From: a virus
DNA: 21,417 nt
IMG/VR virus record: IMGVR_UViG_3300042539_000902
Location: 1-21,417 of that record
Direction: 5' to 3' (one strand)
In this document: positions 79 through 21,094 of the stretch, one piece after another
Numbering within the stretch: the first letter of the stretch is position 1
Layout: every line of letters starts with the position of its first letter
Made by a program: the position numbers and the translations under genes
Notes under the pieces: model-generated
What the model saw: the letters and a program-made list of their open reading frames with translations, nothing else
Told to the model about the DNA's origin: nothing
Databases searched by the model: none

Positions 79-1296
79 TCAGGACAAAAACTCATTTTCT
101 ACGTTTACAAGAGTTTTGTTTAGGTTATTTACACGATTTATTCTTACAATCAAACCTTCCAATTCAAACTTGCCAATTTCTTGTTCTTCGGTAATTATTT
201 CATTAAGAAGACCAATCCACTTTGCGTTTTCATTGTTAAGATTTTTAGAGTCTATTTCAACGATAATATCATGTTCTGATAAGTCATCTATCGATTTTAT
301 ACGGTTACTCATATCATATGATGTTGTTGGTTGAATTTCCTCTCTCATAAAATCAATCAGAACGGGGTCATCTAAATAAAGTGTTGAACACCACGGTTCA
401 AGAAACTTAGCAGCTCTGTGGTCTGAATTATTAAGAACAAATCCTACGTCATACTTTGGTTTTATTATTGGCATAAGATATGGGTCGTGCTCAACAAAAC
501 ATCCCCACTTTCTAACGTAGTCCCATGTTGATTGTTCCATCAGTATTTGCCAGTCTTTAGACTTTTGTGAGTGGTCTTTTGTTAGAACACCGTGTTCAAA
601 TTGTCCACCACGGCAAGTTAAGTGGTAAACAAAACCGTCCCACACTTGAATCAAATCTAATCCATTCAAAACAAATCGGTTGAATATATCTGAATCTTCA
701 CGAGCAGATTTCATCACTGGGTCATGTCCACCTATTTGAACTACATTCTTTTTATGTACCATCCACGGTGCAAAACAACCTCTTGTAGTCTTTCCACTAT
801 TTTGTTCTGTGATTTTAGTGACATATTCTCCGAGTTCATTCTCTTTGAATCCATCTTCAACATCGTGTTCCGGCCATAGACCAAAGTCTTCTACAATCTT
901 TTCCGGTCCTGGTGGATGTAGTGGTGGTTCAATTCTTGTTGCACAGACAACAGACTTTTCGGTTAAATGTTGATACATCTTTAAGTCTGCATCTTTACAC
1001 AAGTACATATCAGCATGAAATACCACAACTACATCTGTTGTAGCTTCTGCAATACATTTGTCATATGCCCTACCAATTCCGTAAAGAGAATTATTTAGGT
1101 CAGGATTAACTATGTATTTTACATTTAGTTGTTCTGATACTTCCTTTAGCCATTCCACCGTTCCGTCAGTATCTTTATCGACGAATACAATTATATCGTG
1201 GTCTTTTCTGTGTGCATTTTTTCGTATTGAAGGAATACACGACTTCAAGTATCGTAGGTTGTTTTTTGATGGTATACAAAACGTTATTTTTTCCAT
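79..1296 (-). CDS. GT2-family (GT-A fold) glycosyltransferase with C-terminal extension
   Basis: Predicted glycosyltransferase of 405 aa that would move a sugar from a nucleotide donor to an unknown acceptor. The N-terminus (ITFCIPSKNNLRYLKSCI) is the first beta strand and donor-binding loop of GT2 enzymes. It is followed by VFVDKDTDGTVEWL near residue 38 and a metal-site-like motif, FHADM, at residues 93-97 in place of a classic DXD. A Trp/His-rich acceptor region (EDSDIFNRF, then VYHLTCRGGQFEHG) lies at about 200-240. The last roughly 125 residues (from KPKYDVGFVLNN) fall outside the catalytic domain and I do not recognise them. No signal peptide or membrane segment is visible. It starts 7 nt after the broken methyltransferase frame, with only a weak ribosome site. 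Family assignment is fairly sure; the sugar and acceptor are unknown. Confidence 0.85.
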   Translation of the reverse strand: MEKITFCIPSKNNLRYLKSCIPSIRKNAHRKDHDIIVFVDKDTDGTVEWLKEVSEQLNVKYIVNPDLNNSLYGIGRAYDKCIAEATTDVVVVFHADMYLCKDADLKMYQHLTEKSVVCATRIEPPLHPPGPEKIVEDFGLWPEHDVEDGFKENELGEYVTKITEQNSGKTTRGCFAPWMVHKKNVVQIGGHDPVMKSAREDSDIFNRFVLNGLDLIQVWDGFVYHLTCRGGQFEHGVLTKDHSQKSKDWQILMEQSTWDYVRKWGCFVEHDPYLMPIIKPKYDVGFVLNNSDHRAAKFLEPWCSTLYLDDPVLIDFMREEIQPTTSYDMSNRIKSIDDLSEHDIIVEIDSKNLNNENAKWIGLLNEIITEEQEIGKFELEGLIVRINRVNNLNKTLVNVENEFLS

Positions 1297-1303
1297 AACT
1301 TTT

Positions 1304-1543
1304 TCACTTTAATTCAATTAGTAAATGTACATCTGAGGATGAATTACTCCATCTTTTTATTTCAGAAACTTTTAGTGGCGTATAATTTTTGCAAATCTCT
1401 TCATAAATAGATATTGGTGCGTTAAAAGGATCCCCCGGTGAATACTTTTTATCTGACAATGATTTTGGAATATAGTGTCCCCCAGAAATACCGTGTTGAA
1501 GTACAATCATTCCTGTTGGTTTTAAAGTTTTGGCCCATTGATT
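1304..1543 (-). pseudogene. C-terminal part of interrupted SAM methyltransferase (after in-frame TGA)
   Basis: This stretch continues in the same frame as the CDS at 1544-1969, directly after its TGA stop. It reads NQWAKTLKPTGMIVLQHG and on to a TGA at 1306-1304. The segment W-(x)n-LKPTGMIVLQHG is the typical strand after motif III of class I methyltransferases (LKPGG, then LxxEH), so it is the missing second half of the upstream gene and not a new gene. The first internal ATG (1510-1508) would give a 68-aa protein, but it falls in the middle of that strand and lacks a convincing ribosome site. The joined reading frame would be 221 codons, a normal size for this family. It is probably not translated on its own. 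Confidence 0.75.
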
Positions 1544-1969
1544 TCAACAATATATTGGATCATATGAGTGATCGAGTGCATTCGAATATATGACATCACA
1601 AGCACCCAACCATTCATCTTTTATTTCGTGCATATCCCATTGTATAGTTATTTCGGGATAACCGAATTTATCACCTATTTCAGTTCCTATGACTTTACAA
1701 TTCAGTAATTCTCCCAAAATTTTATTCTCTAAACCAGATCGAACACCATGACACAATCCAAACGTCGGGTTTTGATTGCGATTCAAAACTTCATCTCGTA
1801 TTTTTTTAAATATGTCTTTTGAATCATTGCAACCGGGCATACTATTGAATTTTTTCTCATTTAAATACTTTTGATTTTTTACATATGATTCATAATCATT
1901 TGTGTAATCCGTAAGTAGAAACCCATTCCCTTCGCCTAATTCTTCATAAATCTTTCTGTCTGTTTTCAT
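1544..1969 (-). CDS. N-terminal part of class I SAM-dependent methyltransferase, cut by in-frame TGA
   Basis: This 141-aa product carries the SAM-binding half of a class I methyltransferase. GLCHGVRSGLEN (residues 71-82) replaces the usual ExG motif, CKVIGTEIGD (91-100) ends in the ribose-binding acid, and CDVIYSNALDHSYDP (124-138) is the motif typical of this family. The frame then stops at TGA 1546-1544 exactly where the family continues into W-x(n)-LKPGG, and that continuation is present in frame downstream (1543-1304). A change of TGA to TTA (Leu) would restore an uninterrupted 221-codon gene. The start is well supported: TAGGAGT, which overlaps the stop of the preceding dioxygenase gene, lies just upstream of ATG 1969. 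As it stands the product should be inactive. Sequence error, true decay and a strain variant cannot be separated here. Confidence 0.75.
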   Translation of the reverse strand: MKTDRKIYEELGEGNGFLLTDYTNDYESYVKNQKYLNEKKFNSMPGCNDSKDIFKKIRDEVLNRNQNPTFGLCHGVRSGLENKILGELLNCKVIGTEIGDKFGYPEITIQWDMHEIKDEWLGACDVIYSNALDHSYDPIYC

Positions 1970-1977
1970 TTTTACTC

Positions 1978-2880
1978 CTAAATATTAACTATCTTTAAAA
2001 AGTCACAAAGTTGTTTATGTCTATCACTTAATTTATTATATTCGTCTTTACTAAATTGAAATCTTCTACTAGAATCGAAATCTTCGTCATGGCATACATA
2101 ATCTAATGTCAACATAGTTCTATCATTTGATATTGGTTTAGTACCTCTATGCCATCCATTTGTATCAGCAACCAATAAATCACCTTTTTTAGCAGTCAAA
2201 TATTTTACGTTTTCTTCACCGTATATTTGATTTATTGGTTCGGTTGGCCATCTATATTGTTTGTTCCAATTCATACCATTTATCTCAAACTTTTTAGTAT
2301 GACTACCTTTGACGTAACAGAAAGGTCCACCATCAATATCAACATCATTCAAGTAAACAAAAAACTTTAAGAATCTTGGAGAATTTGGATCAACATGATA
2401 AAGTTGTGTTCCCTCTTCTGGAAGATCGTTAACAAAACTCTTTCTGAGATTACAGGTTCCAAACGCAGGAAAACAGTCTAAATACGCACCTGCAATATCA
2501 ATAATAAAGTCATTGAATACAAGTTCGTGTATTTCTTCCACAGAAATTAGTGGCTGGAGCACTTGTATGTACGGCTTTGTATTCCTAGCATCCGACTGAG
2601 AAATTTTGTTTTGATTGTATGGGTGATTACCATCATCTAAAATTCTTTGAGTCTTTTGATTTATTGTGTCTATCAATTCTAAACTTAAAAAGTTTTCTAT
2701 CTTAGCATAACCTTTTTCTTCAATTTCGTATGCAACTGAAATCGCGTTTTCTTGTGGAGTATAATTTGGATACTTTTCTTTTCTGACTGAATATGCCTCA
2801 CTAAACTTTGTAAGGTTTGTCAATCCATTTGTTATCGACCTTATATCCGGCCAGTAGACCCATTCTATATTTTGACTCAT
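1978..2880 (-). CDS. Phytanoyl-CoA dioxygenase (PhyH)-like Fe(II)/2-oxoglutarate oxygenase
   Basis: A 300-aa member of the PhyH-type non-haem iron oxygenases, which hydroxylate small substrates using 2-oxoglutarate and O2. The iron triad is visible as H162-V-D164 (YHVDPNS) and H244 (NGWHRGTKP), with R254 (SNDRTMLTLD) placed to hold 2-oxoglutarate. The jelly-roll strands LKFFVYLNDVDIDGGPF (171-187) and KKGDLLVADTNGWH (231-244) are typical. The substrate is unknown. Its place in a sugar island suggests oxidation of a sugar or lipid-linked glycan intermediate, which is inference. The start follows the upstream stop by one base and has AAGGAA as ribosome site. It ends with TAG, the only terminal TAG among the genes here, and that TAG overlaps the ribosome site of the next gene. 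Confidence 0.85.
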   Translation of the reverse strand: MSQNIEWVYWPDIRSITNGLTNLTKFSEAYSVRKEKYPNYTPQENAISVAYEIEEKGYAKIENFLSLELIDTINQKTQRILDDGNHPYNQNKISQSDARNTKPYIQVLQPLISVEEIHELVFNDFIIDIAGAYLDCFPAFGTCNLRKSFVNDLPEEGTQLYHVDPNSPRFLKFFVYLNDVDIDGGPFCYVKGSHTKKFEINGMNWNKQYRWPTEPINQIYGEENVKYLTAKKGDLLVADTNGWHRGTKPISNDRTMLTLDYVCHDEDFDSSRRFQFSKDEYNKLSDRHKQLCDFLKIVNI

Positions 2881-2881
2881 G

Positions 2882-3607
2882 TTAATTCCTTAGTATTTTT
2901 TTTATTTTTTCCGATAGAGGGAAATATATTTTACTGTAATCTGTACTGCAATTAAAATTAAATCCTTCACCCAAGTTGTATAGTTTACACCCGTTCAATT
3001 TAGAGTATTCATATAAAGCGTTCGCCATTTGAATATATGATTTATACACCGTTTCGTAACTGTGTTTTCCATTATCTCCATCTATTATAGATGTTCGGAA
3101 CGAGTTGTGGGGGTCTTTCTTATAATCCACACTCCTCCCGTCAATTCCAACATAATACAATTCAGAAGGATTAAATGACATAACGAAAAAAGTTAATCTA
3201 CCAGCTGCACCTTCCTTATCATCTATTTCTGTATTGTAATATACAAGTTTTTCTCTATTTTTTTCTTCAAACTTTTTGAAGATTTCAGAATTGTAAAAAG
3301 GTCTTCCTAATTTTGGCTCAAAAGCTAATGTACAATTTGGATTATCTTCTATAAAACTTAATAATCTATTGTCTTGAAAATCTAATATTTCAGATAGCGT
3401 TACATGGCCTATATTTTTTAGATTTCGTATCTCATCATTGAGATAAAAAAATGTTGTTGTTACTATTACGTCATAATCTAACTTTCTCCAGTCCACAAGA
3501 TTTAAAGATGGACCAGAACCTATAACTAATACCTTTTTACCAGTAAACTTTTCTACAAAAATATTTGAATCTATTGTTGAAGATTTTGTCTCTAAAAATT
3601 TTAACAT
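2882..3607 (-). CDS. GT42 / DUF115-like Rossmann-fold protein, candidate sialyltransferase-type enzyme
   Basis: A 241-aa protein opening with KKVLVIGSGPSLNLVDW (24-40), a glycine-rich nucleotide-binding turn followed by a short helix. In GT42 sialyltransferases (Campylobacter CstI/CstII) and in MAF/DUF115 proteins the equivalent loop (GNGPSL/GSGPSL) contacts CMP-sialic acid or related donors. The order of later elements also fits: a strand at 46-56 (DVIVTTTFFYL), then ELYYVGIDG (149-157) as the second hallmark strand, then an amphipathic helix and a KLYNLGEG-like strand. The gene lies directly downstream of a CMP-sugar synthetase, overlapping it by 7 nt, so a transferase using that CMP-sugar is a reasonable reading. 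I cannot distinguish a GT42-type transferase from a DUF115 protein of other function by eye. Confidence 0.55.
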   Translation of the reverse strand: MLKFLETKSSTIDSNIFVEKFTGKKVLVIGSGPSLNLVDWRKLDYDVIVTTTFFYLNDEIRNLKNIGHVTLSEILDFQDNRLLSFIEDNPNCTLAFEPKLGRPFYNSEIFKKFEEKNREKLVYYNTEIDDKEGAAGRLTFFVMSFNPSELYYVGIDGRSVDYKKDPHNSFRTSIIDGDNGKHSYETVYKSYIQMANALYEYSKLNGCKLYNLGEGFNFNCSTDYSKIYFPLSEKIKKILRN

Positions 3608-4281
3608 AATGTTTTATATAGAGATTGTGCAACATCAAACTGCCATTCATAGTCTATATCAAATGATTCTAATTCTTCCATGACAAATAATTCTGGTTTT
3701 GGTGGAGATTGTGTGTCCATCCAATACCCTTGACCAATTATATCCATTCTACTTGCATACAAACAGTGTGCCGCCTCATAAATTGGATCTACATACTTTG
3801 TATTCATTATAGTAGATCCTTTCCAGTCTGTTATTGGAAATCCAACTTTATCCCAATAGTATGTTTTCTTTTCAAAAACTGCAAAGGCACCTTCTCTGTC
3901 AGATGATATAAATTTTTCTATGAAAGAATCTATTGTATCTGGTTTTAAAAGTGGATTACATGCACTAACTAATATCACGTATTTAAAAGGCAATCTATCC
4001 CACCACTCATATATCTCTGTAAGTGGTTGTCCTTCTGATTGTGCAGATTGTTTTGACCTATCAAAAATTTTTATTCCGTGATTTTTTCCTATTGTTTTTA
4101 GTTCATCCTCATACGCGGAGAAATATACTTGTTCAATACTTATGGATTTCAGTTTTTTTAGTTTTTCAAAAAGTATGTCAACAAGAGTTGAATCGGCAAA
4201 AGGTCTTATCATTTTATTTGGAACTCTTTGTGAACCCAGCCTTGCTTGAACCAGCACGCAAACATCATCTATTTTTTTCAT
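3601..4281 (-). CDS. CMP-sugar synthetase (acylneuraminate cytidylyltransferase family, NeuA/PseF/LegF-like)
   Basis: A 226-aa cytidylyltransferase predicted to activate a nonulosonic or similar 3-deoxy sugar acid as its CMP derivative, using CTP. The N-terminal signature VCVLVQARLGSQRVPNKMI (7-25) matches the CTP-binding loop of the family (ARxGSxR-x-x-K). A downstream VSACNPLLKPDTI (near 106-118) corresponds to the conserved segment with its acidic/Asn-Pro metal region. The length suits the single-domain form (about 220-240 aa). It lies between a 66-aa helical protein gene (17-nt overlap) and the GT42-like gene, in an island with two NeuB-type synthases, which strongly supports the role. 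Which acid it activates cannot be read. Confidence 0.82.
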   Translation of the reverse strand: MKKIDDVCVLVQARLGSQRVPNKMIRPFADSTLVDILFEKLKKLKSISIEQVYFSAYEDELKTIGKNHGIKIFDRSKQSAQSEGQPLTEIYEWWDRLPFKYVILVSACNPLLKPDTIDSFIEKFISSDREGAFAVFEKKTYYWDKVGFPITDWKGSTIMNTKYVDPIYEAAHCLYASRMDIIGQGYWMDTQSPPKPELFVMEELESFDIDYEWQFDVAQSLYKTLC

Positions 4282-4465
4282 TGTTGGATAGTTCCTCTGT
4301 TAATTCATTAATTTTTTGGTCACAATCTTTAATATCCTTAAATATCTTTCTAGCTTTTTCTGGATCAAGTTCAAAACACAGTCTAACTGCGTCCATCCAA
4401 TTAACATTGTTTTTTGCTCGAATTTCTTGTATTTCGTTTATTATTTCAATATCCGTTCTGTTCAT
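4265..4465 (-). CDS. Small helical protein of sugar clusters, function unknown
   Basis: A 66-aa, highly charged and probably all-helical protein with the pattern EIQEIRAKNNVNWMDAVRL (12-30), then PEKARKIFKDIKDCDQKI. From memory of phage and marine bacterial genomes, short proteins with a similar I-R-x-K-N-N-x-x-W-M core recur near surface-sugar genes, but no function is established that I know of. It has its own ribosome site (AAAGGT, 9-10 nt before ATG 4465) and overlaps the cytidylyltransferase start by 17 nt, which suggests coupled translation. A stabilising or accessory role for a neighbouring enzyme is only a guess. Confidence 0.75.
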   Translation of the reverse strand: MNRTDIEIINEIQEIRAKNNVNWMDAVRLCFELDPEKARKIFKDIKDCDQKINELTEELSNNEKNR

Positions 4466-4475
4466 AACATAACCT

Positions 4476-5807
4476 TTAATTGTGAAAATAGTTCATGCAA
4501 TAAGAAACTGCTCTTTGATAAATATCGGGGTCTCTGCTAAACATTATATGATTACCACCTTCACAGTAATTCCAATGTGCGTATTTGGGTCCCATCAATA
4601 TCATCTTTAACAACTTTTCATCTAGTCTGTAAGTAACATAATCTTTTCTATCGAATTCCGATTCATTAATTATTTCATATGGTTTACCATTAAAAGGCAA
4701 CTTTAACATTTTGTTTTCTGGTAGGTAAATGTAAACAGAAGTATTTGATTCAAATTCCATTTCTTTTCGTTTTTTATCAAATCTTTCAAATGCACCGGGG
4801 ATTAAATTTAATATATCAGACAATTCAGGTTTTGGATTATCTTCGTATGTGTATGTTACTTTTGATAAAACTTCTTCTATATACTTATCTCGTTCTTCAT
4901 AATTAACGGGTATATATTCTGATGTTTGTTGAAGAGTGGTTAAATCAAATGTTTCCCAACTATTCAATAAGAAGCCATGTGATTTATGATTTCGTTTAAA
5001 ATAATCTAAAGCGTATTCTACTGTATGTACTCCCTTGAACTTTTCTAATTTTGAAGCCTTACCTGCAAGAGTATATGTACCAGCAAAAGGCATATAGCTA
5101 ATTGGGTTTACCTTTTTAATAAAATTCATACCATTATCTAAGTTCAATTTTCTATAACGGTCGCCATGCAATCCAAGTTTTTCTTCATCTGAATAATGTT
5201 CATAACACTGTGGGTAAGCACCAGCACCAGAATATCCAGTTAGTAATAAGTTTATTTTTGGATGCGATTTTAAAATTCTATCTACTGTTTTTTCTGCCAA
5301 AGAGAATGGACAATCATTTGTATTTAGGATTGTTTCTGATTCATTGTAAAATACTGCCATTGTATCAATTGTAGATGATCTATATTTTGTTTCCATTTTT
5401 CCACATCCAAAATGACTGTAACAGATTTCTGGATTGCAGTCATCTGCTATAAATATTTTTATGTATAGACCATCACCACAATGAAACTCCTCACCGTGTT
5501 TTAATTCTATTACAGTTTTTCCGTACCCTTTTAATCTATTTTTCAATGCAGGAGAATCGAATTGATAAATGATAATCGGTATATCATCGTTTATTGATTT
5601 TAAAGTTTCTTCATCTGCATGGTCTGCGTGTACGTGTGAAATGTAAATGTAATTTACATCATTTAGTTTTTCCGATTTATTTTCAACAGGTGGGTAGTGT
5701 GACCATGAACCAAAAAATGGCTTTCCTATCACCCACGGGTCAGTCAAAATTTTAGTATTTTTGTGAGATACTATTGTTGTTGATGAGGCGATAAATGTTA
5801 AATTCAT
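4476..5807 (-). CDS. Metallo-beta-lactamase-fold hydrolase/oxidoreductase, UlaG- or CMAH-like
   Basis: A 443-aa MBL-fold enzyme. The dinuclear metal motif is H58-V-H60-A-D62-H63 (YISHVHADHAD), preceded by the buried strand KILTDPWV (19-26) typical of UlaG-like members. Further landmarks are a TNDCPF segment and LLTGYSGAGAYPQCY, the Gly/Pro-rich loop seen in the MBL half of CMP-N-acetylneuraminate hydroxylase-like proteins. The protein is longer than a bare MBL domain, and the last roughly 150 residues form a separate part I cannot name. There is no Rieske CxH...CxxH motif, so if it is related to CMAH it lacks that domain. It overlaps the GNAT gene by 4 nt (ATGA). The sugar-island context makes modification of a sugar acid plausible but unproven. 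Confidence 0.7.
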   Translation of the reverse strand: MNLTFIASSTTIVSHKNTKILTDPWVIGKPFFGSWSHYPPVENKSEKLNDVNYIYISHVHADHADEETLKSINDDIPIIIYQFDSPALKNRLKGYGKTVIELKHGEEFHCGDGLYIKIFIADDCNPEICYSHFGCGKMETKYRSSTIDTMAVFYNESETILNTNDCPFSLAEKTVDRILKSHPKINLLLTGYSGAGAYPQCYEHYSDEEKLGLHGDRYRKLNLDNGMNFIKKVNPISYMPFAGTYTLAGKASKLEKFKGVHTVEYALDYFKRNHKSHGFLLNSWETFDLTTLQQTSEYIPVNYEERDKYIEEVLSKVTYTYEDNPKPELSDILNLIPGAFERFDKKRKEMEFESNTSVYIYLPENKMLKLPFNGKPYEIINESEFDRKDYVTYRLDEKLLKMILMGPKYAHWNYCEGGNHIMFSRDPDIYQRAVSYCMNYFHN

Positions 5808-6361
5808 TGTAGTTCCTTAAAATATTTTGGATTGAAACAGCCAACCAATATTCTATCGATTTGATTACCGTCAACCAAATAGTGGCCGCTTAACCTGCCT
5901 TCAATCACCCAACCAGCTTTTGTATATGATTTTATTGATGAAATATTTGTTTCATACATTCCACCATATAGTTTTCTAATGTCATAAATATCAAATGCAA
6001 TTTTATTTCCCAAAGAAATTGACTCAGACGCAAGTCCTTTTCCGTGATAGGATATATCACCAATTAAAACAACTAAGTCAGATATTTTGTGGATATGATT
6101 TATGGTTCCAATTTTTATTGTGCCTATACATTTTGAATTAGAGTTATCATATATTCCATATGTATAGTTTGTTTTAGAAATTTCTCCATCGATTATATGA
6201 TTTACTATATCTTCTCTTGTTATTTTCTTCCCACTATTCGTATAGTATTTCATCAACTCTTCATTTGAAAACCAAGACATAAAAGTATCATCTATTTCCG
6301 AAGTAGATAGTTTTTTTAAATATACCCTTTCTCCATAAAAACGTAGCTCATCTTTTTCCAT
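5804..6361 (-). CDS. GNAT-family N-acetyltransferase (RimJ/PseH-like)
   Basis: A 185-aa GNAT acetyltransferase that would move an acetyl (or other acyl) group from acyl-CoA to an amine. It begins with the RimJ/PseH-type opening GERVYLKKLSTSEID (10-24). It has the acceptor-domain SWFSNEELMKYY, and motif A is DLVVLIGDISYHGKGLASE with the pyrophosphate-binding HGKGLA turn. Motif B follows with KLYGGMYETNISSIKSYTKAGW, the usual N-x-x-S-x-x-x-Y-x-K-x-G-F/W pattern. Inside an island with a PseB-like dehydratase and a DegT aminotransferase, the natural reading is N-acylation of an amino-sugar, as PseH or LegH does. The start has AAGG about 8 nt upstream and lies 4 nt after the methyltransferase stop. 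Confidence 0.83.
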   Translation of the reverse strand: MEKDELRFYGERVYLKKLSTSEIDDTFMSWFSNEELMKYYTNSGKKITREDIVNHIIDGEISKTNYTYGIYDNSNSKCIGTIKIGTINHIHKISDLVVLIGDISYHGKGLASESISLGNKIAFDIYDIRKLYGGMYETNISSIKSYTKAGWVIEGRLSGHYLVDGNQIDRILVGCFNPKYFKELQ

Positions 6362-6365
6362 AAGA

Positions 6366-7052
6366 TTACCTTATTTGTAATGATGCAAGACCACGATGTG
6401 TATTTGCTATGTAATCATATTCAAGACCAGTTTCAGAGATAAACTCTTGAAACGCCTTGTATTCATGGTCTTCCCATTTATAATTGTACCAGTATTCGTC
6501 AAACATAATAACTGTTTTTGATTTTATTAAGTGCTTAAAATTGTCAAAAATAATTTTAGTTGACGAATAAAGATCACAATCAATGTGCATGAAACTTACC
6601 ATGTCAACATCACTCGGAAGAGTTTCAACAAATTTTGGTATTGTTTCATCAAACCAACCTGGGATTAATTGAACATTTGGATTTACTTTTGGAAGTAAAC
6701 CTTTTAAATCAAGAGAACCTTTTTTGCAAAAATCAATATCTGAATACCAGTCTTCTGGAAGTCCTTTAAAAGAATCAAAACCATAAACTGTCATACCCGT
6801 TCTGCTTGATATTAAATTTATACTTCTTCCTTGATATACACCAAATTCCATCCAAAGACCATTTTTTGAATCTGCGTGATTTAGTGTGTAATTCCAAAAA
6901 TCAGTCTGACTTTTTAAATTACTGGTCCGGCCGTGCTCCGCGTCAAATGTTTTAGATTTCAATACTCTTTGTATTTCATCGTAGTGAACGCCCCAATATG
7001 AGTTTGGTCTTTTAGAAGGGTCTACTTGAAATATTTCTTTATTTGGGTCCAT
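6366..7052 (-). CDS. TylF/MycF-like class I SAM methyltransferase
   Basis: A 228-aa methyltransferase of the TylF (macrocin O-methyltransferase) type, a family that often methylates sugar hydroxyls. Motif I is LWMEFGVYQGRSINLIS (67-83), in which E69-F-G-V-x-x-G-R-S is diagnostic. It is followed by VYGFDSFKGLPEDW, the acidic loop of this family, then SFMHIDCDLYSSTK with the metal-binding Asp pair, and FDEYW near 180. All key residues appear present, so it should be active, probably Mg2+-dependent. It overlaps the NeuB gene upstream by 14 nt. It probably O-methylates the island's sugar or glycan, with SAM possibly supplied by the MetK encoded at 18709-19854. The acceptor is unknown. Confidence 0.83.
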   Translation of the reverse strand: MDPNKEIFQVDPSKRPNSYWGVHYDEIQRVLKSKTFDAEHGRTSNLKSQTDFWNYTLNHADSKNGLWMEFGVYQGRSINLISSRTGMTVYGFDSFKGLPEDWYSDIDFCKKGSLDLKGLLPKVNPNVQLIPGWFDETIPKFVETLPSDVDMVSFMHIDCDLYSSTKIIFDNFKHLIKSKTVIMFDEYWYNYKWEDHEYKAFQEFISETGLEYDYIANTHRGLASLQIR

Positions 7053-8046
7053 AATTTAATTCCGTATTCTGTATAAAATCATCATATTCATAATCTTTTT
7101 GTGAAATCTTACCAATAACATCAAAGTAAGAAATTCCAGGAATACATCCCTCGATACATGGTCTTTTTGTTGTTACATTTTCGTATGAAAATTTTTCACC
7201 TTTCTTTATAGATTTATGTGCAACAACAGACCTCATTGCTTTTTGGATTGTCAATTCAGATTCGGTAAAGTCATTTTCTTTAATACCCATACAAGTTTCA
7301 GTATATCTGATATTATCGACCATTGTTTTTAGTTCATGTGGTTCTAATGCAAAAGGATGATCGGGGCCTTTAAGAAATTTACTCAATGTGAAATGTTTTT
7401 CAATTACAGTTGCTCCAGCAGCAACAGCCAACGATGGCGTCAATGTTGAAATAGTGTGGTCGGAAAAACCAGTCTTGTATCTATTATCGTTTGACATCAG
7501 CCGTATAGTTTCTAGATTAACATCAGTTGGTGGTGTTGGATATGCGTTGTTACAATGTAAAAATGTAACGTCATCAATTTCATGTTTATTGGCTATGACT
7601 AAAATTTTATCGATTAGTTTTATGTTTGCACCAATACCGATAGAAACTATAATTGGTAGTTTTGCAGAGCAAACCATTTCAACAAATCTCATATCAGTAG
7701 ATTCAAACCCAGCTATCTTCATTCTACTTACACCAATAGAAACAAGTTCATCAACAGCTTTTTCATCAAATGGAGTTGACATGAATTCAATACCAACAGA
7801 ATCGCAATGATTTTTTAAATCAGACTGCCACTCTCTTGGTAATTCAATGTCTTTTATAAGTTTGTTTATATTTTTATACCCAGCAAAATCTGGCGTATTC
7901 TTACTATAAAGTGTCTCGGATGAATATGTTTGAAACTTACAAGCATCTGCACCAGATTCTTTGGCAACATTTATCAATGATATTGCCTGTTCAAAACTTC
8001 TATTGTGATTGGCGCCCGCCTCAGCTATGATAAATGTTTTCGTCAT
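7039..8046 (-). CDS. neuB: NeuB-type nonulosonic acid synthase with SAF domain
   Basis: A 335-aa sialic-acid-synthase-family enzyme that condenses phosphoenolpyruvate with a six-carbon amino-sugar to give a nine-carbon sugar acid. The TIM-barrel starts with FIIAEAGANHNRSFEQAI (5-22) and ADACKFQTYSSETLY (33-47). FMSTPFDEKAVD (88-99) is a hallmark. VIEKHFTLSKFLKGPDHPFA (214-233) is the conserved metal/PEP region. Residues from about 271 (MRSVVAHKSIKKGE) to about 330 form the C-terminal SAF antifreeze-like domain that closes over the neighbouring active site, so this copy is complete. Whether the product is Neu5Ac, legionaminic or pseudaminic acid cannot be told by eye. The start lies 26 nt inside the preceding aminotransferase gene, the longest overlap in the window. 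Confidence 0.9.
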   Translation of the reverse strand: MTKTFIIAEAGANHNRSFEQAISLINVAKESGADACKFQTYSSETLYSKNTPDFAGYKNINKLIKDIELPREWQSDLKNHCDSVGIEFMSTPFDEKAVDELVSIGVSRMKIAGFESTDMRFVEMVCSAKLPIIVSIGIGANIKLIDKILVIANKHEIDDVTFLHCNNAYPTPPTDVNLETIRLMSNDNRYKTGFSDHTISTLTPSLAVAAGATVIEKHFTLSKFLKGPDHPFALEPHELKTMVDNIRYTETCMGIKENDFTESELTIQKAMRSVVAHKSIKKGEKFSYENVTTKRPCIEGCIPGISYFDVIGKISQKDYEYDDFIQNTELNYGPK

Positions 8047-9004
8047 ACAGTGGTAAATTCAATATTAGTTTATGTAACTTTTCAGTATTTGGTAATTGAA
8101 TATCCGATGAAAAAATCTTGGTTTTGTGTATCATTGGATAATGTTTTGATGTTGGATATATTTGATACAGGGAGTCAATATTATCTTCGTTACAAATCAA
8201 CGTATCAAAGTAATATGATGACATTGTATCGTGATGTAATAATCTACCATCTAATCCAAGTGATTCAACTAATATATGACATTTTTTTCTCTTATCCAAA
8301 TTTTCTTGGTATCTATTTAACTGAGTTAAGGCTATGGTCGCATTTAGATTATTCATGTAAAACTTAAATCCATCGGTAACTATATCGTATGTATTACCGA
8401 GTGGCTTTCTTCCAAAGTTTCTATACAGATTGAAAAACTCAAAAGATTCCTCATAGTCCGTAGAAATCATTCCACCGTCCGAACACGCAATTGGCTTAAA
8501 TGGGTGGAACGAGAAAAAAGTAAAGTGTGATTTTATAGTTGGGGTAACACAGTGGGCAGAGTCAACAACAATTATTTCTTCATCTAAATCATCGAATCCA
8601 TTTATCGTACTGACTCCACCGTATAGAATTGGCATCAATACCCTTATTCTACCACTATTCTTTTTTATTCTCTGATAATGATTTATGTCAAATAACAAAT
8701 TATCATCAACATCAACAAATATAACGTTATGACCTAAATGTTTTGCAGTCCAAATTGGTGAAATAAATCCAATCGATGTTGTGTAAACATCACATACTCC
8801 AAACTTTTCCATCAAGTATGCAAATATCATATAGGCGGATGCCGACGCTGAGTTAGTGGCGACGTTGAATTTCTTTTTACTGAATTGTGAAAACTCAGAT
8901 TCAAATTTATTTACTGAACTACCAAATCCAATATCTCCACTTTTAATTACATCGGCTATAACATTTACATCTTCATCCAATATGGTAGTTTTAAACAGAT
9001 TCAT
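8021..9004 (-). CDS. DegT/DnrJ/EryC1/StrS-type PLP sugar aminotransferase
   Basis: A 327-aa PLP-dependent aminotransferase of the sugar type (PseC/LegC-like), which converts a 4-keto nucleotide sugar to the 4-amino sugar, usually with glutamate. The Schiff-base lysine is K170 in FFSFHPFKPIACSDGGM (163-179), and the PLP-pyridine Asp is D148 in EEIIVVDSAHC (142-152). The N-terminal ATNSASASAY (49-58) replaces the common NGTxAL phosphate loop. It is somewhat shorter than the usual 360-390 aa, mainly in the C-terminal part, but no break is evident. It overlaps the PseB-like gene by 14 nt and neuB by 26 nt, so the three genes are tightly coupled, matching the order of reactions dehydratase, aminotransferase, synthase. 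Confidence 0.87.
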   Translation of the reverse strand: MNLFKTTILDEDVNVIADVIKSGDIGFGSSVNKFESEFSQFSKKKFNVATNSASASAYMIFAYLMEKFGVCDVYTTSIGFISPIWTAKHLGHNVIFVDVDDNLLFDINHYQRIKKNSGRIRVLMPILYGGVSTINGFDDLDEEIIVVDSAHCVTPTIKSHFTFFSFHPFKPIACSDGGMISTDYEESFEFFNLYRNFGRKPLGNTYDIVTDGFKFYMNNLNATIALTQLNRYQENLDKRKKCHILVESLGLDGRLLHHDTMSSYYFDTLICNEDNIDSLYQIYPTSKHYPMIHKTKIFSSDIQLPNTEKLHKLILNLPLYDENIYHS

Positions 9005-9980
9005 TTTCTATACCACGCTGAATTAATTTGACAAGTTCATCAATATCACCATTCAAATACAAAGAAGAATTAAATTCTGGACCATCATATTTTTTCCAGT
9101 CTTGATAATTCTTATTTGTATATTGTGGTCGTATCTGTAATAGATTTATATCCGGTACTTTGTGAGTGAATGGTAATTCAGTAACCGCCAACATATCTTC
9201 GTGGAGTTTTTCACCAGGTCTTATTCCAACTACATCATAGTCTACGTTCTTATTTGTTATCTTCGATATTGCATTGACAACATCTAGGATTGTGTATGAA
9301 TTTATTTTTGGAACAAAAACTTCACCACCAACAGAATGATATAGTGCATTTAAAACAGTATCAACTGCATCATCGAGTGTAAATAAAAACCGAGTCATAT
9401 CCGTGGAAGTAACCTTAATTTTTTTATCCTCTGAGATCATTTCCATCCAAAGTGGTATAAATGAGCCACGACTTGCTATTACATTACCGTATCTAACAGA
9501 AGAAAATATTGTATCGGTTGAGCTATAATCATAGTTTGTAAATATTCTTTCTGCAATAAACTTACTTGAACCGTATACGTTCACAGGCTGACAAGCTTTA
9601 TCAGTAGATATTAAAATACACTTTTTCACTCCACTTTCTAAAGAGGCACGAGCAACATTTTCAGAACCCAATATGTTTGTTTTTACACACTCATCGGGAT
9701 GAAATTCCATGTCATCTATTCTCTTTAATGCCGCAGTATGTATAACATAATCTGGTTTATGTTTCTTGAATGAAACTAGTAACTTATCATAATCACGAAC
9801 ATCACCAATCACAGTTACAACTTTAGAATCACCACCAAATGAAAGTGCTTGTTTACCTTCATCTCTCGAATAAACAACTATCTTGCAGTTGTATGACTTT
9901 AATCTTGTTACCAATTCCTTTCCAAGAGAACCAGTTCCACCCGTAATTAAAATGGTTTTACCTTCTATAAATTCTTTCAT
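8991..9980 (-). CDS. PseB/FlaA1-like UDP-sugar 4,6-dehydratase (short-chain dehydrogenase fold)
   Basis: A 329-aa extended short-chain dehydrogenase of the Polysacc_synt_2 group, which contains PseB (UDP-GlcNAc 4,6-dehydratase/5-epimerase) and related enzymes. The NAD(P) loop is GGTGSLG (14-20). D60-V-R-D holds the adenine. HTAALKRIDDMEFHPDECVK (81-100) matches the family's signature after the third strand. The active site is STDKA (125-129) with VYGSSK (135-140), in which the D-K pair is typical of PseB-type dehydratases. GIRPGEKLHE later in the sequence is another family hallmark. It starts 1 nt after the SAF-less synthase stop, with AGAGG as ribosome site. It likely makes the 4-keto-6-deoxy sugar that the next gene aminates. 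The precise stereochemistry is unknown. Confidence 0.88.
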   Translation of the reverse strand: MKEFIEGKTILITGGTGSLGKELVTRLKSYNCKIVVYSRDEGKQALSFGGDSKVVTVIGDVRDYDKLLVSFKKHKPDYVIHTAALKRIDDMEFHPDECVKTNILGSENVARASLESGVKKCILISTDKACQPVNVYGSSKFIAERIFTNYDYSSTDTIFSSVRYGNVIASRGSFIPLWMEMISEDKKIKVTSTDMTRFLFTLDDAVDTVLNALYHSVGGEVFVPKINSYTILDVVNAISKITNKNVDYDVVGIRPGEKLHEDMLAVTELPFTHKVPDINLLQIRPQYTNKNYQDWKKYDGPEFNSSLYLNGDIDELVKLIQRGIENESV

Positions 9981-9981
9981 A

Positions 9982-10809
9982 TCATCCTCTCAACTTACTT
10001 CTGATTGGTTTCTGAGATTCTGTAATTTTTATAATACCATCGCCATACGCCTGTTCAAGTTCACGTATTCCCTTTACAAGTTTAATTAAACCTTGTGGTT
10101 CTACTGATGACATATGGTCTGTTCCCCACATTGTTCTATCGAGTGTAATGTGTCTTTCTATAATGGACGCACCGAGATATACTGATGCAACCGTGGTTCC
10201 TAATCTAAATTCGTGACCAGAATAACCAACTTCACAGCCATATTTTTCTTTAAGTGTTTTTATAACTGATAGATTTAGTTCCTCTATTGGAGCTGGATAT
10301 GTGGAATTACAATGTAATATTGCAAATTCTTTTGAATCTTTCAATATCTCAACAGCACTATCTATTTCTTCTTCAGTTGACATACCGACTGACAATATTA
10401 TCTTCTTACCAGTGTCTCTTGCCGATTTAAGAAGTTCGTGGTTTGTTAACATTGCCGATGGTATCTTTATAAAGGGAATATCATATTGACTTAAAAAGTT
10501 AAGTGAGTCTAAATCCCACGGTGATGCAGACCACGAGATTCCTTTTTCTTTACAGTAAGAATCTATTTCATCGTATTCTTTCTTACCAAACTCAACTTTA
10601 TACTTGTATTCCAAGTATGTCATAGTTCCCCATGGCGTTTCTCTCATAACATTTTTCTGATGTTCTGGTACACAGACATCTGGATTTCTTTTTTGGAATT
10701 TTACAGCATCACATCCAGCTACTGCGGCAATGTCTATAAGTTTCTTCGCAACATCTATACTGCCATTATGGTTTATACCTATTTCGGCAATTATGTAAGT
10801 ATTTTTCAT
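9982..10809 (-). CDS. SAF-less NeuB-family synthase (second sialic-acid-synthase-like enzyme)
   Basis: A 275-aa member of the NeuB/PseI/LegI family, distinct from the copy at 7039-8046. The barrel hallmarks are present: YIIAEIGINHNGSIDVAK (5-22), CDAVKFQKRNP (33-43), SASPWDLDSLNF (94-105), ILHCNSTYPAP (165-174) and IIERHITLDRTMWGTDHMSS (216-235). The last segment matches the R-x-x-W-G-[ST]-D subgroup rather than the GPDH form of the other copy. The protein ends at about the point where the SAF domain would start, and no continuation is seen in any frame, so it is naturally short rather than broken. It may make a different keto-sugar acid, or be a partner of the full-length copy. Ribosome site TAAGGT precedes ATG 10809. 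Confidence 0.86.
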   Translation of the reverse strand: MKNTYIIAEIGINHNGSIDVAKKLIDIAAVAGCDAVKFQKRNPDVCVPEHQKNVMRETPWGTMTYLEYKYKVEFGKKEYDEIDSYCKEKGISWSASPWDLDSLNFLSQYDIPFIKIPSAMLTNHELLKSARDTGKKIILSVGMSTEEEIDSAVEILKDSKEFAILHCNSTYPAPIEELNLSVIKTLKEKYGCEVGYSGHEFRLGTTVASVYLGASIIERHITLDRTMWGTDHMSSVEPQGLIKLVKGIRELEQAYGDGIIKITESQKPIRSKLRG

Positions 10810-10818
10810 TTATTGACC

Positions 10819-12027
10819 TTATAATGTTAGTAGATAATTTACTATTCTCTCTGAAGCTGATTTATCATTGAATTCATCGAATAACTTTATAAAAGGAGAT
10901 TTTGATTCATGTAGATTATTTAGAAACTCAAAATTAGTGTCACACATTAGTACATTATCTTTGGAAATGTTATTGACAATATTATTTGTTTCATTAAACT
11001 TATTAATCCTATCCAAATCTATCATTCTAGAAAAATCCTCATGGGAGTTAACACCAAATACGGACATCCAGAAACGAGCAGAATCTTCGACGCCCTCTTT
11101 TGATTCATTGATGTATCTCGAATAATCATTCGTCATCAAATCTATATCACAAACTTCATTCAATATACACAAAATTTTGTTAAAATAAAAGGAGTATTGA
11201 CATACACTAGATATTGATGCAATGTGAATATCACATATACTACTCATAGTATTTGTATCTATGTCATCATATATTACTTGAATTTCGGGTATTATGAATG
11301 GATTAAATTGATGACTGAACATCCGATTAAATGGTTCTTGTGGATTTGGTTTGTAAAATATCTGATGAGTCTCTTTAACTTTTTGATATAGATTTCTGAG
11401 GAATTCAAATGATTTAGTTCTTGACGTATTTATTATTCCCCAAAACAATATTTGCTTCTTTGAAGTATCTATCTTGTATTTTTCAATACACCGTTCTTTA
11501 TCCATTTCTGTGAGTAAATCAAATCTGGGGTTTCCTACAACTATTGATTTATTAATCCATTCTGGATAAAGACAGTCGGCTCTGCGTAATCTTGCAAATT
11601 CACTGTGTTCAAAATATCCATCTACCATTGACTGTGGAATCACAGAATCTCTGGATAACATTTCTAGTCTATTTTCTATGTTGTTTATTATGTGGGAGCT
11701 AACTTCAACAACATATACTTTTGAACCAATAGATTTTGATTCGAAAATTATGGACTGTTCTGGTTGCCACCTTTCTCTTGCCAATAAAACAACATCCGGT
11801 TTGAATGGTAAGTTTATTCCAAGTGATTGCATAAAATAACCAGACGAGAAATCTGTATCTATGTTTGTATCATAGCTGAATTCTTCAACACTAAATTGGG
11901 GATTTTTAACATCAGTTTCTGTTGAATATAGAAAAAATGTTGGTATTTCTCTATTAACCAATTCCACATAAACATTTTTTAAAGCGGTATAGCTTCTATA
12001 GCTAGACGCAAATATTAAAACATTCAT
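10819..12027 (-). CDS. GT-B-like surface-carbohydrate protein, candidate glycosyltransferase
   Basis: A 402-aa protein taken from ATG 12027 (MNVLIFASSYRSY), which overlaps the FkbM stop as ATGA; an ATG 12 nt upstream lacks support. It looks like a GT-B fold of the CDP-glycerol transferase, MurG or polysialyltransferase kind. There is a Rossmann opening, a KPDVVLLARERWQPEQ stretch, then the inter-domain segment SIVVGNPRFDLL, which in such enzymes precedes the C-terminal domain. That domain begins KKQILFWGIINTSRTKS, and FYKPNPQEPFNRM and DIHIASISSVCQY follow where the donor-phosphate site would lie. I do not see a clean EX7E motif, so GT4 is unlikely. It might instead be a UDP-sugar hydrolase (PseG-like), a step otherwise missing from this island. 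Fold moderately sure, reaction not. Confidence 0.6.
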   Translation of the reverse strand: MNVLIFASSYRSYTALKNVYVELVNREIPTFFLYSTETDVKNPQFSVEEFSYDTNIDTDFSSGYFMQSLGINLPFKPDVVLLARERWQPEQSIIFESKSIGSKVYVVEVSSHIINNIENRLEMLSRDSVIPQSMVDGYFEHSEFARLRRADCLYPEWINKSIVVGNPRFDLLTEMDKERCIEKYKIDTSKKQILFWGIINTSRTKSFEFLRNLYQKVKETHQIFYKPNPQEPFNRMFSHQFNPFIIPEIQVIYDDIDTNTMSSICDIHIASISSVCQYSFYFNKILCILNEVCDIDLMTNDYSRYINESKEGVEDSARFWMSVFGVNSHEDFSRMIDLDRINKFNETNNIVNNISKDNVLMCDTNFEFLNNLHESKSPFIKLFDEFNDKSASERIVNYLLTL

Positions 12028-12851
12028 AGAGGTACACAAATTAAATTGTGACCGGAAGATATATCGATGTCATCGATAGATTTTATTTCTTTGCCCAAAT
12101 TATCTATATCAAGATTGTTTACTTTTTCATCATATGCTTTATATCCAGCATTGTTAATAGAATCAATTAAATCCTTAACTTCATCAGTATCCAATCCATT
12201 ATACACTTCCGTTATAAGAACTGGTTTGTACTCTTGAAGTAATGGTGTTATTGTTTTTATGATTTCTTTATCGTGACCTTCTGCATCTATCTTGATGAGA
12301 GATATTGAAGTTGAATCAAACTCTATTTCTTTTAGAAATTCAATCAATCTAATTGCATAAACATCAATTGGAATTTTATGACCAGTTACACCAATTCCTC
12401 TGTGAGTTCTGACCGCAAATCCTCCATTACAAAAACCTTTATCGGAGTAATGGAATGTAAGAGGTCCTTCTAAATCACTGACTGCATAGTTATATGGTTG
12501 TATATTTTTGTTTATCTCGGAGTTCTTTTGTAGTACCTCAAATGTTGCAGGATTTGGTTCAAACGATAAAACTTTATCTGCAAATAATGAATAAGCAACA
12601 GACATATTTCCAGACTGAGCACCTATATCAATTACCGTAGAATTGGGTTTAATTATTTTTGAAAGATTAATCAAAATCTCATCAGTAAATACTTCCGTTA
12701 ATTCCCAATCGCCTTGGTATGGATGTAACCATCGGTGATATTGAATATCTCTTTCTAATCTTTTTAAGTTGATAATCTTTGTATCGTAGTGATTTCCAGT
12801 TTCAGTTAATACTTTAAGAACTTCACTTCTGTATTGTGAAATATCGTACAT
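12024..12851 (-). CDS. FkbM-family SAM methyltransferase
   Basis: A 275-aa FkbM-type methyltransferase, a family that O-methylates sugars and polyketides. Motif I is STVIDIGAQSGNMSVAYSLF (71-90), followed by VLSFEPNPATFEVLQKN, in which E-P-N-P is the family hallmark. It continues with YNYAVSD and ISLIKIDAEGHDKEIIKT, the D-A/V-E-G-x-D/E motif. The N-terminal roughly 60 residues, including RDIQYHRWLHPYQGDWEL, precede the core and contain no domain I can name. It follows the GT2 gene by 2 nt, with AGGA as ribosome site, and overlaps the next start by 4 nt. Likely methylates the glycan made by the nearby transferases. The acceptor is unknown. Confidence 0.88.
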   Translation of the reverse strand: MYDISQYRSEVLKVLTETGNHYDTKIINLKRLERDIQYHRWLHPYQGDWELTEVFTDEILINLSKIIKPNSTVIDIGAQSGNMSVAYSLFADKVLSFEPNPATFEVLQKNSEINKNIQPYNYAVSDLEGPLTFHYSDKGFCNGGFAVRTHRGIGVTGHKIPIDVYAIRLIEFLKEIEFDSTSISLIKIDAEGHDKEIIKTITPLLQEYKPVLITEVYNGLDTDEVKDLIDSINNAGYKAYDEKVNNLDIDNLGKEIKSIDDIDISSGHNLICVPL

Positions 12852-12853: not shown

Positions 12854-13480
12854 TTATCCTATCGTATCATAAAAATCATTTTGTTTTTCTTGACGTTGAA
12901 TTGACTTGTTATGAAAAAGACAATAATCTTTATCGTCTGGTAACATTGCATATTTATCAAATCCTTCTAGGACTTCATGTACTTTATTTTTCCATTGAAT
13001 TTCTTCTTTGTTCTTGTAGATTCTCATTTGCCAGTCAGGCCAATTTATTCTACCCTGCTCGTCATATTTCCACCGCCATCTATTTATATGTTCTTTTGTT
13101 ATACCTTCAACAATATTCCATCTTGGAACTATCAATACATCCAAATCGTCATTTGATTCTAAAATCGGATGAATATTCTCAATTAAAAATGATGATGGCA
13201 TTTCATCGGCATCAATATTGAAGATCCATTTTTTACTACAATGTTTCTTCAAGTTATTCTTAAATGAAGCAAAGTCTCCATTCAGAGGATATTCTATAAC
13301 TTTCATCGAAGGAATTCTACTTTGATACAAAATTGCAACACCTCTAACGGCATCAGTTACTTTTGCAGAATCCATTTGAAGAACTATCTCATCATTTGAT
13401 TTTAAATTCGTTCTCAAATAATTCAGGAGTTTTTCTAACTCCATATGTTCATCACAAACAGTTATGGTATATGAAATCAT
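12854..13480 (-). CDS. Small GT2-family glycosyltransferase
   Basis: A 208-aa GT2-like enzyme with a complete but compact GT-A domain. It starts ISYTITVCDEHMELEKLL (2-19), where the expected strand-turn-helix of GT2 appears. The metal motif is D90-A-D92-E in WIFNIDADEMPSSF (85-98), the I-D-A-D-E form common in LPS and phage transferases of the WaaE type. NWPDWQMRIYKNKEEIQWKN and KVHEVLEGF later match the same subgroup. The start codon overlaps the preceding GT4 stop (ATGA), so translation is coupled. Acceptor and sugar are not readable. Confidence 0.85.
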   Translation of the reverse strand: MISYTITVCDEHMELEKLLNYLRTNLKSNDEIVLQMDSAKVTDAVRGVAILYQSRIPSMKVIEYPLNGDFASFKNNLKKHCSKKWIFNIDADEMPSSFLIENIHPILESNDDLDVLIVPRWNIVEGITKEHINRWRWKYDEQGRINWPDWQMRIYKNKEEIQWKNKVHEVLEGFDKYAMLPDDKDYCLFHNKSIQRQEKQNDFYDTIG

Positions 13481-20225: not shown

Positions 20226-20233
20226 CTTGTTCC

Positions 20234-20942: not shown

Positions 20943-21093
20943 TTTCTTTTCCTTTCTCTTCTATTAGTTTTTTGGTTTTGTCATATATTTCATATAAAAT
21001 TTCTTTCGGGAAATCGGCAGTATCTATTTCATCTGTTGATGATATATTCGAAATCCTATAATGGTTATCTGATATAGTTATCATGATTTGCAT
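20935..21093 (-). CDS. 52-aa acidic/basic mini-protein filling the gap after gp44
   Basis: A 52-codon frame from ATG 21093 begins one base after the gp44-like stop (TAAT-ATG). It ends in a TAA that overlaps the ATG of the zinc-ribbon gene (AATGAGTAA). It fills the otherwise empty space exactly, as expected of a real gene in a packed phage operon. The protein starts MQIMITISDNHYRISNIS and has a charged helical tail, KEILYEIYDKTKKLIEEKGK. GGAAG upstream of the ATG is a plausible ribosome site, and the second Met (21084) is an alternative start. I recognise no family. Its small size means coding is supported by fit and not by homology. Confidence 0.6.
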   Translation of the reverse strand: MQIMITISDNHYRISNISSTDEIDTADFPKEILYEIYDKTKKLIEEKGKENE

Positions 21094-21094
21094 A

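Follow-up and report, generated by a model that had tools for sequence, protein, structure and literature searches.

The nearest described counterparts of the glycan island analysed here are cellular pathways. Kdn (3-deoxy-D-glycero-D-galacto-nonulosonic acid) is made in Bacteroides thetaiotaomicron, by genes that we take to be BT1713-1715, and in Prymnesium parvum, with a NeuB-family synthase, a HAD phosphatase and a CMP-sugar synthetase; pseudaminic acid is made through PseB-C-H-G-I-F. The island lies in a 21,417-base fragment of an uncultured virus (IMG/VR record IMGVR_UViG_3300042539_000902; hereafter the window) and encodes a NeuB-family synthase without a SAF domain, a second NeuB-family synthase with a SAF-like tail, a CMP-sugar synthetase (cytidylyltransferase) and a GT42-like sialyltransferase-fold protein, together with candidate decorating enzymes (Table 1). 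It shares the synthase and CMP-sugar synthetase with the Kdn pathways, and many related phage loci share the HAD phosphatase as well, a likeness of gene content; it differs in being phage-borne, in the attached GT42-like transferase and in the weakly EcbF-like character of the phage HAD. With the pseudaminic acid pathway it shares PseB-, PseC- and PseI-like enzymes, with a GNAT acetyltransferase and the cytidylyltransferase, in one gene run; in contrast, PseG was not found, the equivalog cut-offs were not reached and relatives carry formyltransferase/PIG-L variants.

In Acinetobacter, the prophage genes epaA/epaB act on host-made nonulosonic acids, as do phage O-acetyltransferases on nonulosonic acids (PMC6586298); in the window, unlike epaA/epaB, synthesis itself is phage-borne. 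Variable glycosyltransferase islands are shared with pelagimyophages, Microcystis phage Mel-JY01 and Flavobacterium phage immuto, the last two having theirs at the same genomic place. Neither Mel-JY01 nor immuto was among the NeuB matches in named phage records, and neither 'sialic' nor 'neuraminate' occurs in the main text of the pelagimyophage study (PMC7029224). The open-access literature matches listed held no report of de novo nonulosonic acid synthesis by phages and described phage genes modifying host-made nonulosonic acids; an apparent mention of neuB in PMC7003362 proved to be an author name. An ocean survey of phage metabolic genes discarded contigs with lipopolysaccharide islands (PMC11360552), which may explain why such gene sets are little reported.

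We consider it somewhat probable that the island makes CMP-activated nonulosonic acids through two separable modules, and that these probably cap glycans of virion proteins.

Occurrence of the core genes

Relatives of the SAF-less NeuB are rare in named phages and frequent in IMG/VR. A search of 50,697 named phage records gave three matches, including one at 26% identity in a Moritella record; in this same collection the cytidylyltransferase had no match at E 1e-5. Of 242 candidate stretches in IMG/VR, 221 code for a relative of this synthase. The initial annotation had called such a gene set unusual in phages; for the SAF-less NeuB this applies to the named records (3/50,697) and not to IMG/VR.

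Locus counts were made over 81 loci, namely the window and the best 80 of the 221 IMG/VR stretches. Near-duplicates were removed to give a set of 66 loci, which was used for Fisher tests. Open reading frames (ORFs) of at least 60 aa were passed through an overlap filter and grouped into single-linkage clusters, and all locus counts depend on these choices; because loci end at their flanks, gene presences are lower bounds. The core trio of SAF-less NeuB, cytidylyltransferase and GT42-like protein was complete in 66 of the 81 loci (55/66 after de-duplication). The SAF-less NeuB, initially annotated as a side relative of the full synthase, instead belongs to the core and fits synthesis of Kdn or Kdn-9-phosphate.

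The SAF-less NeuB and the proposed Kdn module

Both window synthases are members of the NeuB family (PF03102; 237-270 bits, cut-off 22.1), and both keep the Lys, His, Glu and Asp positions that we take to form the catalytic and metal site. No SAF match was found with Pfam in the SAF-less protein, which also lacks the SAF-domain Arg that is present in the SAF-type protein; this Arg presumably contacts the N-acetyl group of N-acetylmannosamine (ManNAc), as in Neisseria NeuB.

For the bacterial comparison 80 relatives were kept of at least 588 found, 55 of them from Streptomyces. These enzymes are themselves SAF-less and were 54-61% identical to the window protein in 79 of 80 cases, the best being 70% identical. 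Within 4 kb of the kept synthases a KdsC-like HAD was found in 71/80 loci, a CMP-sugar synthetase in 72/80 and both in 68/80; the HAD profile derived from three proteins of those same loci and the CMP-sugar synthetase profile from two. In whole genomes carrying a bacterial relative, the SAF-less NeuB was the only strong NeuB in 20/20 (17 of them Streptomyces), a second and weak match of 22-33 bits being present in four. The HAD of one bacterial locus (L089) had PDB entry 3e81 as its best match (E 8e-31), which we take to be the B. thetaiotaomicron Kdn-9-phosphate phosphatase, with KdsC entries close behind (6e-29). Kinship with Kdn-9-phosphate synthases was traced indirectly, through SAF-less bacterial NeuB proteins that adjoin a HAD and a CMP-sugar synthetase and have no other strong NeuB beside them in the genome. 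The nearest cellular relative kept was that of a Neomarinimicrobiota metagenome-assembled genome (locus L086:8822-9969; synthase 70% identical), where a cytidylyltransferase and a KdsC-like HAD come directly after the SAF-less NeuB.

The bacterial kinship, the adjoining HAD and CMP-sugar synthetase, the sole NeuB and the lost SAF Arg favour Kdn, and the product of the SAF-less NeuB is likely to be Kdn made from mannose-6-phosphate. A Kdn route needs neither NeuC nor PseG. A characterised algal Kdn-9-phosphate synthetase accepted mannose-6-phosphate alone of seven sugars (PMC6200933). Streptomyces, a genus described as having Kdn teichulosonic acid in the wall, gives the largest kept group of SAF-less NeuB loci (synthase 54-57% identical); in one of them (L105) CMP synthetase and HAD form a single fused protein, whereas the phage uses a remote cytidylyltransferase. 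A Kdn polymer is reported in streptomycete walls (PMC11481543), in species that differ from those examined here.

It is rather improbable that the SAF-less NeuB makes a Neu5Ac-like, Kdo-like or new aldulosonic acid, with the two modules in series or sharing intermediates. Its assignment is through homology, its best NCBIfam match is N-acetylneuraminate synthase (NeuB_NnaB TIGR03569, 268 of 400 bits; PseI TIGR03586, 204 of 340; neither cut-off reached) and its best PDB match, 6ncs, is annotated as a sialic acid synthetase, all of which would suit such a product. A NeuC/WecB homologue to make ManNAc was, on the other hand, found in 0/50 related records, the close bacterial relatives adjoin a HAD resembling KdsC and Kdn-9-phosphate phosphatase, and the Arg presumed to contact the N-acetyl group is gone.

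In the Kdn module as proposed, the SAF-less NeuB would condense mannose-6-phosphate with phosphoenolpyruvate to Kdn-9-phosphate, a HAD phosphatase, phage-borne in many relatives and host-supplied for the window, would free Kdn, the cytidylyltransferase would form CMP-Kdn and the GT42-like protein would transfer Kdn. A small HAD is present in 49/81 loci, and 23 of its 49 ORFs lie one or two places before the synthase; in two distant named phage records it comes directly after the SAF-less NeuB (MH319754) or ∼3 kb after it (LR756508). The profile from the bacterial loci gave no KdsC-like HAD match in the 80 phage loci. Several results on the phosphatase weigh against the Kdn assignment. The remaining 26 of the 49 small HAD ORFs fall outside the two places before the synthase, the small phage HAD scored 26.9 of 162 bits against EcbF-BcbF, under the cut-off, and its presence showed no significant tie to that of the cytidylyltransferase (p 0.066, set of 66). 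The HAD cluster has no member in the window, and no Pfam HAD match was found among 20 window proteins scanned. A complete Kdn pathway, with a HAD phosphatase in the same locus, was thus not found in the window, a 21-kb fragment, and a host phosphatase must be assumed. The difference between the Streptomyces species examined and those with reported wall Kdn counts in the same direction.

Two phage loci (L005:14509-15693 and L034:13761-14981) encode an ATP-grasp-like protein whose C-terminus by eye resembles the small HAD phosphatase. A long NeuB type of 485-503 aa was also seen (L034:16467-17924 and seven other ORFs of 487-503 aa); the one scanned, from L034, has a NeuB domain followed by a cupin-like domain.

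The SAF-type synthase and a proposed second module

The SAF-type NeuB matched SAF weakly (17.6 bits, cut-off 21) and had a pseudaminic acid synthase as its best PDB match (8h2c, E 1.7e-56). With the PseB-like dehydratase and the DegT aminotransferase it would form a second module, in which these two enzymes would give a UDP-4-amino-sugar to be decorated by the acyltransferase, UDP would be removed by a host or some other enzyme, and the SAF-bearing NeuB would form a pseudaminic/legionaminic-like acid. With no UDP-removing gene recognised, the product can be called only 'like' these acids.

DegT was found only where a SAF-type NeuB was present (16/16 loci; Fisher 1.9e-13, set of 66), and PseB was found in 17/17 SAF-type loci (Fisher 5.8e-11, set of 66). 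The one SAF-type locus without DegT (L050) carries, by eye, an apparent class III aminotransferase. PseB occurred without a SAF-type NeuB in 11 loci, 5 of these with another second NeuB. The SAF-type synthase is lacking from 64 of the 81 loci with a SAF-less NeuB. Seventeen loci came from a scan with the SAF-type NeuB, three lying on contigs already in the first set, and 14 of the 17 had no close SAF-less NeuB within the stretch covered. Two separable modules suit the island better than a single pathway: the genes of the single route initially proposed are present, and the single route itself is the less apt reading, as DegT tracks the SAF-type NeuB and most loci do without that synthase.

Pfam placed the synthases, the cytidylyltransferase and the aminotransferase in the families named in the initial annotation (NeuB, CTP_transf_3 and DegT), and the Pse/Neu equivalog cut-offs were not reached. 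The dehydratase scored 283 of 408 bits against PseB (TIGR03589), the aminotransferase 102 of 423.5 bits against PseC (TIGR03588), its best NCBIfam match, and the SAF-type NeuB 269 of 340 bits against PseI (TIGR03586) and 302 of 400 against NeuB_NnaB (TIGR03569). Among ten window proteins scanned, the GT42-like protein not included, none reached an NCBIfam cut-off, so that we infer the exact sugars from more distant likeness. IMG/VR records for 50 of the 80 loci, many of them fragments, gave a match to Epimerase_2 (PF02350; NeuC/WecB) in 0/50 and to PseG (TIGR03590) likewise in 0/50. These shortfalls argue against the proposed second module. PseG and NeuC were also not among the ten window proteins scanned with Pfam and NCBIfam, in agreement with the early remark that this step was not obvious. 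Because a recognisable UDP-removing gene is absent, the second module needs either host help or the 406-aa GT-B protein.

The 406-aa protein is an unlikely candidate for the missing UDP-sugar hydrolase/2-epimerase (PseG/NeuC analogue). Its model matched TarL/TagF and UDP-GlcNAc 2-epimerases in a tie (Z 20-21.5; ∼20-21 for the epimerases), with NeuC at Z 18.4-18.7, so the transferases match equally well. In the set of 66, six of the ten loci with the GT-B protein have a SAF-type NeuB (Fisher p 0.0066) and four do not, and 9 of 15 SAF-type loci lack the GT-B protein; in the SAF-type scan it is present in 13 of 17 loci. Removal of UDP by a host enzyme or another protein is retained in the proposed scheme.

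Activation and transfer

The cytidylyltransferase matched CMP-NeuAc synthetases in the PDB (6oew, E 4e-7; 1qwj, E 3e-6), scored 32 of 206 bits against PseF (TIGR03584), below the cut-off, and has cluster members in 70 of the 81 loci. The same enzyme could activate the acid of the second module. Three observations count against this arrangement. The window has one cytidylyltransferase for two synthases; it is remote from those of the bacterial loci (22-27% by tblastn, in 6/80 loci); and in the cytidylyltransferase tree the window clade mixes loci with and without the second module. One phage contig (L076:10807-11457) has a bacterial-type cytidylyltransferase (E 3e-73 to the bacterial profile), unlike most other phage copies.

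No Pfam family exceeded its cut-off for the GT42-like protein, a weak MptE-like match lying below. The profile of its family matched eight GT42 chains (Cst-I/Cst-II) in the PDB at E 7e-8 to 3.5e-7, the next match being at E 0.028. The model (pLDDT 90) had Cst-I at first rank (Z 13.0 over 207 residues), and of the 26 fold matches with Z of at least 9.5, 22 were sialyl/glycosyltransferases, 2 HPPK and 2 SteA. Kinship with GT42 is thus indicated by both the profile and the fold of Cst-I/Cst-II, at 13-19% identity in structural alignments. An archaeal HPPK of the MptE-type fold ties with Cst-I (Z 12.8 over 161 residues), and no invariant His was found in 27 aligned GT42-like phage proteins, a difference from Cst-I/Cst-II; both points speak against a GT42 assignment. 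Fold, sequence and position next to the CMP-sugar synthetase agree in suggesting a GT42-like protein, and the fold alone is indecisive. The cluster comprises 92 ORFs in 73 loci, often in multiple copies, and 41 come directly after the SAF-less NeuB; 26 of the 92 have no direct blastp match to the window protein.

Phage context and maintenance of the island

The island genes are phage-borne and intact. Each is an intact minus-strand ORF and neighbours overlap slightly. The initial annotation of a phage-borne nonulosonic acid gene set (synthesis, CMP activation and a GT42-like protein) beside phage replication genes is borne out by Pfam and profile families, the intact ORFs and a phage flank with clamp-loader genes. 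Clamp-loader, exonuclease, IMPDH and MetK genes occur in the right flank in the order seen in the complete Mel-JY01 genome, in which other glycan genes come after the shared backbone block; the complete immuto genome carries a glycan island at the equivalent position. The window MetK was called through its match to Mel-JY01; neither this MetK nor a 167-aa ORF of the window was found among the 80 related loci. The 14792-16120 glycosyltransferase at the island head matches Mel-JY01 at 56% and immuto at 48%, in a syntenic place in both, and is the only one of the two GT4-type genes for which Pfam GT1 exceeds its cut-off.

A chimeric assembly of host lipopolysaccharide genes and phage genes, the alternative that had been raised at the outset, was rejected: L003 and L004 show the same succession of exonuclease, IMPDH, glycosyltransferases and island, as does L040, which is apparently close to L003, and the place matches Mel-JY01 and immuto. 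Capsid proteins on the contigs of two related loci were nearest to Mel-JY01 (L016, 57%) and to the uncultured LR756508 (L015, 39% over 96%, with shorter parts at 46-48% to Mel-JY01 and immuto). GC content is 0.31-0.34 across most of the island (window 2000-13000) and 0.37-0.42 in the flank (14500-20000).

In comparison with L003 and L004, five enzymes had ratios of non-synonymous to synonymous change (pN/pS) of 0.12-0.26 and the GT42-like gene had ratios of 0.32-0.35. With L006 the range was 0.18-0.43 for these six enzymes, and the 406-aa GT-B protein gave 0.20-0.60 against L003, L004 and L006; these ratios are rough, synonymous sites being near saturation. The low values indicate maintained genes rather than chance frames, and the island enzymes are under purifying selection.

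Decorating and other genes

The initial annotation had not listed the TylF-type and FkbM methyltransferases, the metallo-beta-lactamase (MBL)-fold protein and the 66-aa ORF. The methyltransferases and the MBL-fold protein may add further decoration. The GNAT protein is weakly PseH-like (TIGR03585, 30.6 bits, cut-off 93.1); spermidine acetyltransferase scored above PseH in NCBIfam, likewise below its cut-off.

The MBL-fold protein matched a non-heme diiron monooxygenase (8a90, E 1.6e-7) in the PDB profile search, and its family profile matched a sequence taken to be that of CMAH (E 2e-16; 0/20 shuffled copies match). No Rieske family was present in its Pfam listing. It is possibly a Rieske-less relative of CMP-Neu5Ac hydroxylase. 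NeuB and CMP-synthetase genes lie near 13/13 close relatives (L178-L190), nine of whose contigs were first found through NeuB; of ten weaker relatives, NeuB was nearby in 2/10 and CMP-synthetase in 0/10. A role as PseG substitute was also considered and is disfavoured, since 4/10 MBL loci have no second NeuB, and an oxygenase-like reading is weakly preferred.

Loci differ in their decorating genes, these being the GNAT, the MBL-fold protein, or the pair of PIG-L deacetylase and formyltransferase. The last two occurred together, and with PseB, in 8/8 loci (L004, L010, L019, L020, L025, L026, L027 and L043), which suggests N-formyl sugar variants. The tail of one formyltransferase (L006:13757-14485, also L010) by eye resembles the stand-alone 66-aa ORF, as if a domain moved between contexts.

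Table 1. Genes and gene groups of the window, with the match or model on which each name is based
Feature	Position	Strand	Basis
GT2 glycosyltransferase (79-1296), short ORFs, PhyH-type dioxygenase (1978-2880)	79..2880	-	Pfam GT2 58, PhyH 48.6 bits
GT42-like sialyltransferase-fold protein, 241 aa, proposed nonulosonic acid transferase	2882..3607	-	PDB profile, model
CMP-sugar synthetase (cytidylyltransferase), 226 aa	3601..4281	-	Pfam CTP_transf_3 PF02348 50.5 bits, cut-off 22.6, E 3e-13
66-aa ORF between SAF-type NeuB and CMP-sugar synthetase	4265..4465	-	by eye resembles C-terminal tail of phage formyltransferase
MBL-fold protein, 443 aa	4476..5807	-	Pfam Lactamase_B_3 25 bits, cut-off 24
GNAT acetyltransferase, 185 aa, candidate N- or O-acyl decoration	5804..6361	-	Pfam Acetyltransf_3 E 7e-12
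TylF-type (Methyltransf_24) methyltransferase, candidate sugar O-methylation	6366..7052	-	Pfam TylF 27.4 bits, cut-off 23; PHROG 6608 E 2e-41
NeuB-family synthase with SAF-like tail, 335 aa, PseI/LegI-like	7039..8046	-	Pfam NeuB 237 bits
DegT/PseC-like pyridoxal phosphate aminotransferase, 327 aa	8021..9004	-	Pfam DegT PF01041 119.8 bits, cut-off 19.8
PseB-like UDP-GlcNAc 4,6-dehydratase, 329 aa	8991..9980	-	Pfam Polysacc_synt_2 280 bits
SAF-less NeuB-family synthase, 275 aa, proposed Kdn-9-phosphate (Kdn-type) synthase, core of Kdn module	9982..10809	-	Pfam NeuB 270 bits
GT-B-fold protein, 406 aa, glycosyl/glycerophospho-transferase or epimerase-like	10819..12039	-	model pLDDT 88.5; one sub-threshold Pfam match
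FkbM methyltransferase	12024..12851	-	Pfam Methyltransf_21 56 bits
GT2 glycosyltransferase	12854..13480	-	Pfam Glycos_transf_2 25.9 bits, cut-off 23.3
Two GT4-type glycosyltransferases, conserved island head	13477-14784, 14792-16120	-	both PHROG 2170 glycosyltransferase
Phage backbone: IMPDH, exonuclease, MetK, clamp-loader gp62 and gp44 (3' part)	16301..21409	-	family matches, Mel-JY01 order

Acceptor and biological meaning

In the proposed scheme a soluble acceptor, probably a virion protein, would receive a glycan in the cytosol, and the nonulosonic acid would cap it. By a plain hydropathy scan, ORFs with at least two membrane-like segments made up 9/1269 of those within eight places of the synthase and 40/1950 of all phage ORFs of the loci, compared with 18/128 in ten bacterial loci, all of low GC, that carry this enzyme. 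With membrane ORFs so rare, flippases and polymerases are hardly at hand, which favours a soluble cytosolic acceptor. Mycobacteriophage virion proteins are reported to be glycosylated (Freeman 2023, cited in PMC12619734), and by analogy virion proteins are the likeliest acceptor.

Host flippases and polymerases might instead carry the nonulosonic acids into host lipopolysaccharide or capsule, so that receptors are altered and superinfection is blocked. The glycosyltransferase islands of pelagimyophages are so interpreted by their authors (PMC7029224), and for epaA/epaB a conversion of pseudaminic acid within the host capsule is reported (PMC12053666). The scarcity of membrane-like ORFs near the synthase tells against modification of the host surface, although host flippases could still serve, and we regard it as rather unlikely.

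Hypermodification of DNA, with sugars or glycans on modified bases protecting phage DNA from host nucleases, is very unlikely. No base-modification gene was recognised in the family listings of the 21-kb window, and we know of no CMP-nonulosonic acid acting as a donor for DNA. What speaks for it is the PhyH-type dioxygenase within the island and the ability of phage glycosyltransferases to modify DNA (PMC12619734).

Virion proteins are retained as the preferred acceptor. A wider proposal, that widespread T4-like phages make their own Kdn, that one branch also makes a diamino nonulosonic acid altered by a CMAH-like enzyme lacking the Rieske domain, and that the GT42-like protein sialylates virion proteins in the cytosol, giving a sialic acid coat without host glycosylation machinery, is offered tentatively and as a whole is doubtful.

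Genes for synthase, activation and transfer travel together in many uncultured virus contigs. If the functions proposed here are correct, phages would carry or install sialic acid-like sugars, with a bearing on adsorption, immunity and host recognition, and would be a source of compact enzymes such as the SAF-less synthase and the small GT42-like transferases.

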